The notes under the pieces are model-generated. The model was not told the origin of the DNA. It saw nothing but the letters and a program-made list of their open reading frames with translations, and ran no database searches. The position numbers and the translations under genes were made by a program. From the NCBI RefSeq assembly GCF_000376385.1, contig NZ_AQWN01000004.1, forward strand, positions 124,001-188,000: a stretch of 64,000 nucleotides of DNA. Direction: 5' to 3'. Below are positions 50,459 to 53,171 of this stretch, one piece after another; position 1 is the first letter of the stretch, and every line of letters starts with the position of its first letter. This DNA comes from Desulfurispora thermophila DSM 16022 (GTDB taxonomy: Bacteria > Bacillota > Desulfotomaculia > Desulfotomaculales > Desulfurisporaceae).

Positions 50459-51481
50459 ATGGCGGTTTACATCCTGGGCATAGAAACTTCCTGTGATGAG
50501 ACTTCCGCTGCCGTGGTGCGGGACGGACGGCAGATCCTGTCCAGCGTGATTGCTTCCCAGGGGGGCGAACACAGCAAGTTTGGCGGTGTGGTGCCCGAGG
50601 TGGCCTCGCGCAAACACCTGGAGTGGCTCAATCCGGTGCTGCAGGAGGCTCTGGAGCGAGCCGGTATAGGCTGGCACGACCTCTCCGGTGTGGCCGTGAC
50701 CTACGGTCCGGGGCTGGTGGGCGCCCTGCTGGTGGGTTTATCGGCGGCCAAGGCCATTGCCCTGGCCCTGGATATTCCCCTGCTGGCCGTCAATCATATG
50801 CAGGGTCACGTGCTGGCCAACTGGCTGGAGGAACCGCTGCCCGAACTGCCGGCCGTGTGTCTGGTGGTGAGTGGTGGGCACACGGATTTGCTGCTGCTGC
50901 GGGGGCTCTGTGAATTTGAGCTTTTGGGGCAGACGCGCGACGACGCGGCCGGTGAGGCTTTTGACAAAGTGGCCCGCGTGCTGGGCCTGGGTTATCCGGG
51001 CGGTCCGCTCATCGACCGGCTGGCCCGGCAGGGCGACAGCCGGGCCATTGAGTTTCCCCGTGCCTTTCTGGAAGAGGACAGCCTGGATTTCAGCTTCAGC
51101 GGTCTCAAGTCGGCCGTGATCAACTACCTGCACCGGGCGACCCAGCAGGGGGTGGCAGTGAACAGAGCCGACGTGGCGGCCTCCTTTCAGCAGGCCGTGG
51201 TGGATGTGCTGGTGGAAAAGACCATGCTGGCCGCCCGGCGCTGCGGTGTGCGCCAGTTACTTCTGGCCGGGGGAGTGGCTGCCAACAGCGCCCTGCGGTC
51301 GGCCCTGGAGCGGGCGGCGGCGCAGCAGGGCTGCCGGCTGGCCTGTCCGCCGCCAGTGCTGTGTACCGACAACGCGGCCATGGTGGCCTGTGCCGGCTAT
51401 TATAAATATCTGCGGGGCGATTTTGCGCCCCTGACCGTAAATGCAGTACCCTATTTGGAGCCGGGGCAGGACGCCTACTAG
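50459..51481 (+). CDS. tsaD: tRNA N6-adenosine threonylcarbamoyltransferase
   Basis: A 340-residue ASKHA-fold enzyme that transfers threonylcarbamoyl to A37 of ANN-reading tRNAs, together with TsaB and TsaE. Motifs: LGIETSCDETSAAVV at the N-terminus, the metal-binding HMQGH near residue 112, and VVSGGHTDLLLL near 140. The C-terminal LLAGGVAANSALR and CTDNAAMVA are also present. The ATG at 50459 was chosen because the family begins MxVYILGIETSCDE and AAAGGA precedes it. A long cluster of DnaA boxes starts 10 bases after the stop. Confidence 0.97.
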   Translation: MAVYILGIETSCDETSAAVVRDGRQILSSVIASQGGEHSKFGGVVPEVASRKHLEWLNPVLQEALERAGIGWHDLSGVAVTYGPGLVGALLVGLSAAKAIALALDIPLLAVNHMQGHVLANWLEEPLPELPAVCLVVSGGHTDLLLLRGLCEFELLGQTRDDAAGEAFDKVARVLGLGYPGGPLIDRLARQGDSRAIEFPRAFLEEDSLDFSFSGLKSAVINYLHRATQQGVAVNRADVAASFQQAVVDVLVEKTMLAARRCGVRQLLLAGGVAANSALRSALERAAAQQGCRLACPPPVLCTDNAAMVACAGYYKYLRGDFAPLTVNAVPYLEPGQDAY

Positions 51482-51490
51482 GCCGAAAAA

Positions 51491-51789
51491 TTATACACAG
51501 CACTGCGCTGAAAAATTACGGTTTATCCAGAGATTTATCCACAGGCTGTGGATAATATGACTGTGGATGTGGTTGGAAATGAGTACCGAAAACCAGTGGC
51601 ATGGTAATTTTTCATTTCCTCAGAGGTGCTTTGTCCGCACCACTCTTTGCCGGGAGTATTTACTGCGGTGTTGCGAAATGGTTGCCGGCGCTGGATTTAC
51701 TCTGTGTATGGCAATAATTGTAAATTGTTAATTATCCACATTGGTTGTGAGCCGTTTTCTGTGGATAATGTGGATAAGTCTGTAGATAA
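51491..51789. other. DnaA-box cluster (six exact 9-mers and three near matches)
   Basis: Exact TTATNCACA boxes: forward at 51491-51499, 51535-51543 and 51732-51740; reverse at 51547-51555, 51760-51768 and 51769-51777, the last two abutting. One- or two-mismatch boxes: 51523-51531, 51562-51570, 51781-51789. An AT-rich stretch lies just before the 51732 box. No dnaA, dnaN, rpmH or recF gene is present, so this is more likely a DnaA-titration or regulatory cluster than the primary origin. The two groups are separated by about 160 bases. Confidence 0.8.
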
Positions 51790-51806
51790 CTTGGGCTATC
51801 GGCCCT

Positions 51807-53171
51807 GTGCCTGTGGGTGAAACTGTGCAGCAAAAATTGTCGGAATTTGAAATAAATAGTTTCTTGGTGCACTGTGCCGGCCGGCACAATATCCTGCCCC
51901 TCACCTCGTTGTGCAATGTGCGCTGCCTTTTTTGCAGCCACCACCAGAACCCGCCGGGAGTGGAGAGCATTTTTCTGCCGCCGGTTAGCGAACATCAGTT
52001 TTTCTTGATGTTGGACTGTTTGGATCCGGGCCGCCCGGTGGTGATTGGCGAGTCGGTTACCCGGTTGATGGAAGGCGAGCCGCTCACCCACCCGCATTTC
52101 CGTTCTTTCCTGACACAGCTGCGCCGCCGTTTTCCCCGCCAGTTGATCAAGCTCACCACCAACGGTACACTGCTGGACCGGGAGATGGTGGAGTTCCTGG
52201 CGGAAATGCGGCCGCTGGAAATTACTCTTTCGCTGAACAGCGCCTCACCGGCCGGGCGGCAAAAGCTGATGCGGGACGGGCGGGCGGCGGTGGCCCTGCA
52301 GGCGGGTGAACTGCTGGGCCGTTACGGCATACTCTGGCAGGGCAGTGTGGTGGCCATGCCCCGGGTGGTGGGCTGGGACGATATAAATGATACTCTCCGG
52401 TTCCTGGCAGCCAGTGGTGCTGCCTGCATCCGCCTGTTTGTGCCCGGCTATACCCGGCTGGCGCCGGTCGCTCTGCGTATGTCCGGGTCGGACAGAGAAG
52501 CGCTCGAGCGGTTGGTGCGGGAGTGGCGGCAAAACAGCGCCGTGCCCCTCACACTGGAGCCGCCCGGTCTGACCGATTTGGCCGCGGAACTGGCCGGTGT
52601 GTTGCCCGGTTCCCCAGCGCAGGTTGCCGGTCTGCAGGCGGGGGATGTGGTGCTGGAAGTCAACGGGCGGCCGGTTTTCAGCCGGGCGGATGCTTTTGAA
52701 AAGGCTTTTGCCCTGCCCGGGCCGCTCTTGACCTGCCGGCGGGGGGAGCGCGTCTTTACTGTGCGGCTGGAGAAAAAGGCCCGCTGTTTTTCCGGCCTGG
52801 TGCTGGATTGCGACCTGGCGCCCGATGAACTGGCCGCTGTTGCCGCGATCATAGAGCGCCACCGCCCGTCCACCGTGCGGGTCCTCACCGGTGAGCTGGC
52901 CCACCCGCTGCTTAAGGCCGCTATGCAGCGCTGGGGGCCGCCCTTGTCCCGGGTGGAGCTGGTGGCCGTGCCCAATCATTTTTTCGGTGGCAACATCGCC
53001 TGCGCCGGGCTTTTGACCGTGGGTGACATGGCGCGGGCGCTGGCGGAGCTTAAGCCGGTGGATCTGCTGCTTTTGCCCGGCCGGGCCTTTGACATGCGGG
53101 GGCGGGACCTGCGGGGGGAAAAATATAGCGCTTTAGCAGGAAAGTATGCCCGGGCCGTGGAACTGGTATAG
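51807..53171 (+). CDS. Radical SAM protein with internal PDZ domain and DUF512-like C-terminus
   Basis: About 454 residues. The N-terminal half is a radical SAM domain with the cluster motif CNVRCLFC near residue 37 and a TNGTLL beta strand near 114. From about 250 to 320 lies a PDZ-like domain, [21 protein letters not shown] and [16 protein letters not shown]. The last 130 residues resemble the DUF512 group of radical SAM proteins ([17 protein letters not shown]). In many such proteins the PDZ is N-terminal; here it is internal. The GTG start has little ribosome site, so it could begin later at 51813 or 51825. The target is unknown. Confidence 0.75.

Follow-up and report, generated by a model that had tools for sequence, protein, structure and literature searches.

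An open question is how Firmicutes, in the absence of Hda, SeqA and datA, limit the initiation of DNA replication. A dense group of DnaA boxes directly 3' of a tsaD gene may bear on it: is such a cluster an origin, a regulatory site for a neighbouring gene, a reservoir for DnaA or an accident of base composition? The cluster lies in the 64-kb stretch of DNA analysed here (hereafter, the window), and its position, its conservation in relatives and its likeness to characterized loci are considered in turn.

The box cluster and its flanking genes

Six exact TTATNCACA boxes are present in the window, and all of them lie within 287 bases 3' of tsaD, in the intergenic span between the tsaD stop and the start of a radical SAM gene (51482-51812). 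Pattern searches placed these boxes on both strands: at 51491-51499 (TTATACACA), 51535-51543 and 51732-51740 (both TTATCCACA) on the forward strand, and at 51547-51555 (TTATCCACA), 51760-51768 (TTATCCACA, read as TGTGGATAA on the forward strand) and 51769-51777 on the reverse strand, the last two abutting exactly. A near-match search added two boxes with one mismatch, TTATCCAGA at 51523-51531 (forward strand) and TTATCTACA at 51781-51789 (reverse strand, after a 3-base gap, GTC), as well as a candidate with two mismatches at 51562. Hence, the six exact boxes in both orientations and the abutting pair described in the first-pass annotation of this DNA were recovered as stated, and its count of three near matches was slightly generous with respect to the third. 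The boxes between 51760 and 51789, also identified by alignment across the order, make up a conserved core of three (boxes 1 to 3) that in the window reads TGTGGATAA TGTGGATAA GTC TGTAGATAA CTT, and an additional box group is located near the tsaD stop. The boxes at 51535 and 51547 form the left and right arms of a head-to-head pair, a perfect inverted repeat (TTATCCACA-GGC-TGTGGATAA, 51535-51555) with a 3-bp gap.

The number of boxes exceeds that expected by chance. In 100 dinucleotide shuffles of the window, exact boxes numbered 1.03 on average and 4 at most, with none of the 100 reaching six, and our own Poisson estimate for six exact boxes within 287 bp is about 4e-11. A pattern search of the 2.82-Mb genome returned 88 exact boxes, compared with 34 for the same pattern read backwards, and the tsaD cluster was the densest, with two or fewer exact boxes per 300 bp elsewhere.

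The upstream gene, tsaD (gcp; tRNA N6-adenosine threonylcarbamoyltransferase, 50459-51481, forward strand; Pfam TsaD, E = 1.2e-96), ends at 51481, and the cluster (51491-51789) follows directly. A tsaB-like match in this genome is on contig C2, away from tsaD, and the cluster is still found at tsaD. Downstream is a gene with radical SAM, PDZ and DUF512 matches in Pfam (51813-53171, forward strand). Its first GTG, at 51807, is indeed 18 bases beyond the last box, as had been noted, although conservation of 'CTGTGGGTGAA' in relatives suggests that translation starts at the GTG at 51813.

Conservation at tsaD and at a second site

We compared 56 tsaD loci from the order, the window included. In 400-base flanks, 83 exact boxes were counted 3' of tsaD and zero 5' of it, and a half-sample of these loci contained 42 against a shuffled mean of 0.63. 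The best match to the 18-mer TGTGGATAATGTGGATAA 3' of tsaD was bimodal (0-2 mismatches at 38/56 loci, 6-9 at 18/56), and none within 3 mismatches was found 5' of tsaD in the 56 genomes. The 38 core-bearing loci share an ungapped array, TGTGGATAA TGTGGATAA GTC TGTTAATAA CTT, such that the triple-box core is nearly identical among them, and it is absent from the other 18. Box 3 is TTATTAACA in most relatives, versus TTATCTACA in the window. Presence of the core tracks families; for example, it occurs throughout f3, f8, f9, f11 and f16, and in no member of f7, f14 or f17. Conservation of the boxes at tsaD in relatives, put forward in the first-pass annotation as a check on its reading, is thus borne out in this order.

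Across the phylum, an exact abutting pair was detected in 137 of 299 genomes, and a reversed-pattern control gave zero in every listed genome. In 80 genomes chosen for having such a pair, 113 exact abutting pairs were mapped against the positions of tsaD and dnaA: 45 pairs, distributed over 40 of the genomes, sit 19-767 bp 3' of tsaD, every one of them oriented opposite to that gene, and four are near dnaA. Because this set had been selected for carrying the pair, we added an even sample of 29 genomes, one from each of 29 families, in which boxes with up to one mismatch were counted in 450-base flanks. At least three boxes were present 3' of tsaD in 19/29 genomes and 5' in 0/29; about one third of this sample is without a tsaD cluster. 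The sample takes in Sda-bearing Bacilli. In one family (that of G319), which the presence of Sda suggests is Bacillaceae, 28/29 genomes carry no fewer than two exact boxes 3' of tsaD; at the one locus read there, a convergent ABC-F gene comes next, matching the arrangement of B. subtilis gcp/ydiF.

Among named loci, at least two exact boxes were found in 14/34 from Bacillota, compared with 1/45 from other phyla. A single locus named as non-Firmicute, in an Armatimonadetes metagenome-assembled genome (L091, contig JAHZOA010000005.1), carries the abutting-pair core 3' of tsaD, which may reflect either a misbinned contig or a transfer. The cluster appears to be inherited vertically together with tsaD, since its presence changes 18 times on a TsaD tree of 190 sequences, and shuffled labels gave at least 53 changes. 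DnaA-box clusters of B. subtilis are often regarded as minor and species-specific; retention at the same gene, in one orientation and in most sampled families argues that this one is under selection.

Of the neighbours of the cluster, tsaD is the sole constant one across the families compared. Depending on the family, the gene that follows encodes a radical SAM protein, an ABC-F ATPase (convergent), 5-formyltetrahydrofolate cyclo-ligase, MurC, Lgt, a LytR-CpsA-Psr protein or an outer-membrane-like protein, and its direction also varies while the core persists. The last of these was seen at a tsaD box cluster (L359, G112:C30) whose next gene weakly matches Toluene_X (outer-membrane transport protein); the genome concerned is perhaps that of a diderm Firmicute.

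A further position recurred among 40 loci whose pairs are away from both tsaD and dnaA: in about half or more of them, the pair lies 3' of comFC and/or ahead of (csp-)hpf-secA. The window genome has its second cluster here (L034:9778-9862; G000:C8, about 179777-179861). It closely follows the 3' end of comFC and precedes cspA-hpf-secA, and its boxes, two of them exact and three with one mismatch, all lie on the same strand. Abutting box pairs occupy the comFC-hpf position in many other genomes of the phylum. In an even sample, a cluster was present upstream of hpf in 8/30 genomes (the window genome included) and downstream in 0/30. The top DnaA regions listed for B. subtilis (PMC4447404) do not include this second site.

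Alternative explanations

The conservation by itself already refutes pure chance, and the broader proposal of a fortuitous cluster, or of a different protein's target that resembles DnaA boxes, is very improbable given the shuffles, the phylum-wide positional conservation, the empty reversed-pattern control and the binding of DnaA to the equivalent B. subtilis region (PMC4447404). It is also unlikely that the cluster exists for transcriptional control, whereby DnaA on the core would repress or activate the downstream gene (here that for the radical SAM protein) or block read-through from tsaD. Such control would be in keeping with the order's core ending about 25 bases ahead of the conserved GTG start, and several of the clusters in B. 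subtilis are promoters under DnaA control (PMC8203912). However, the gene downstream, and even its direction, varies while the core stays, no sigma-70-type promoter at the site rose above chance level in a scan, and gcp is missing from the listed DnaA-regulated gene sets of B. subtilis (PMC8203912). The earlier proposal that DnaA controls the radical SAM gene may hold in this order but, with different genes downstream in different families, it does not describe a conserved role. A promoter or terminator as the main reason for the cluster was likewise rejected, with scans at chance level, and no Rfam family reached threshold for a structured RNA at the site.

A second replication origin, or a relocated oriC, would account for the tsaD site having more exact boxes than oriC, where they are few, yet this explanation is extremely improbable. 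The dnaA gene is on contig C12, in the order recF-dnaN-dnaA-rpmH-rnpA-yidC-jag-mnmE-gidA (names from reading translations; dnaA by Pfam), which includes the canonical rpmH-dnaA-dnaN-recF region. The 72-bp dnaA-dnaN gap (L033:7557-7628; G000:C12) holds TATTAGTAATAG, GGGG and TGTGCATATGTGGATAA, with two tandem box-like sites and TAxTAxTAx trios (DnaA-trio), and this is likely the oriC unwinding element. No DnaA-trio or GC-rich element was found at the tsaD site, and GC skew stays positive over all 293 kb of contig C4, with no sign change at tsaD. Locating dnaA, dnaN and the skew, as the first-pass annotation had advised, thus upheld its view that the cluster lacks dnaA, dnaN, recF, rpmH and gidA neighbours and is not the usual Firmicute oriC, and led us to discard its suggestion of a second initiation site. 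Quite improbable, too, is an element that alters which nucleotide DnaA carries, in the manner of E. coli datA (ATP hydrolysis) or DARS (ADP release), to which the cluster had also been compared. There are likenesses: the boxes are dense and outside oriC, the window has one head-to-head pair (51535-51555), datA is a box cluster away from oriC that is proposed to lower active DnaA, and DARS1 and DARS2 are non-coding box clusters, as is the tsaD site. However, datA works with IHF, whereas the 500 bases at the tsaD site contain no exact match to the IHF consensus TAAnnnnTTGATW on either strand (weak sites may exist), and the locus is not homologous. The DARS core requires opposed DnaA boxes I and II, and DARS2 requires IHF/Fis as well (PMC8682772), whereas all three boxes of the conserved tsaD core have one orientation, and the head-to-head pair occurs in exact form in 1/56 genomes of the order, i.e., in the window alone. 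Moreover, B. subtilis is described as being without IHF, datA and DARS (PMC13220808). With neither an exact IHF consensus match nor conserved opposing boxes, we rejected membership of the datA/DARS type.

Probable role and relation to known DnaA-box clusters

The gcp (= tsaD) region is among the strongest DnaA-binding regions of B. subtilis. Downstream of gcp, DnaA binds 10 sites with a Kd of 0.15 uM (ATP) or 0.33 uM (ADP), and at 55 nM binding is 16-fold higher with ATP (PMC4447404). Deleting six extra-oriC clusters together caused early initiation (PMC5295017, PMC13220808), which was partly relieved by restoring one cluster (PMC5295017). Since the six-cluster deletion leads to early initiation and gcp is outside the DnaA-regulated sets, the locus is read as a putative DnaA sink. 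In our assessment, the site in the window is probably an extra-oriC DnaA-box cluster of the B. subtilis gcp type, acting most likely as a non-transcriptional sink. It is very likely that the tsaD cluster is of ancient origin and brakes or buffers DNA replication, in a way described so far mainly for B. subtilis.

By analogy with B. subtilis, we infer DnaA binding, a preference for ATP-DnaA and an effect on initiation timing at the window cluster. Both the AAA+ domain and the helix-turn-helix domain (DNA-binding domain Bac_DnaA_C, Pfam) are intact in the genome's own DnaA. The non-coding cluster DNA would bind many DnaA molecules, and the core, with three successive same-strand boxes, two of them abutting, would favour cooperative ATP-DnaA assembly, as head-to-tail abutting boxes should favour ATP-DnaA oligomers. 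Holding DnaA as a sink, the cluster would double in copy number shortly after initiation, on passage of the replication fork, leaving less free (ATP-)DnaA at oriC and delaying re-initiation. In seven complete core-bearing genomes of the order, tsaD lies 0.27, 0.47, 0.48, 0.58, 0.76, 0.83 and 1.75 Mb from dnaA, and the time of doubling is therefore not fixed; the B. subtilis gcp site is 0.63 Mb from the origin (PMC4447404).

More tentatively, and with somewhat less than even confidence, we propose that the common ancestor of the Bacillota already had a DnaA-control locus fixed directly 3' of tsaD, and that part of the phylum has another at comFC-hpf-secA. These would form a phylum-wide system of DnaA sinks, functionally equivalent to datA; B. 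subtilis gcp would be a single descendant, and selection would act on the linkage to tsaD itself. The defined 30-bp core could be deleted or relocated in many species. In the literature searched, no paper tied tsaD or comFC/hpf to conserved DnaA boxes outside Bacillus. As far as that literature shows, what is new is conservation at tsaD across the phylum, together with the core of three boxes and the site at comFC-hpf, although priority is uncertain.

The kind of element is already known from the DnaA-box clusters of B. subtilis, this very site included. The ywlC, ywcI/vpr, yqeG/sda, yydA and trmE clusters likewise have boxes outside oriC, and DnaA binding is known for them. They are located upstream of DnaA-regulated genes, whereas the tsaD cluster is downstream of tsaD and has no constant target. 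The closest counterpart is the gcp/ydiF cluster (region 4 of Smith and Grossman 2015, PMC4447404), which also has many boxes on both strands 3' of tsaD (gcp). It differs in exact spacing and box number and in the next gene (convergent ydiF, as opposed to the co-directional radical SAM gene of the window). With six exact boxes in 287 bp, an oriC located elsewhere, a position immediately 3' of tsaD/gcp and conservation over the phylum, the window cluster occupies the same place as gcp/ydiF, in agreement with the original suggestion of a locus comparable to the B. subtilis clusters that titrates or regulates DnaA.
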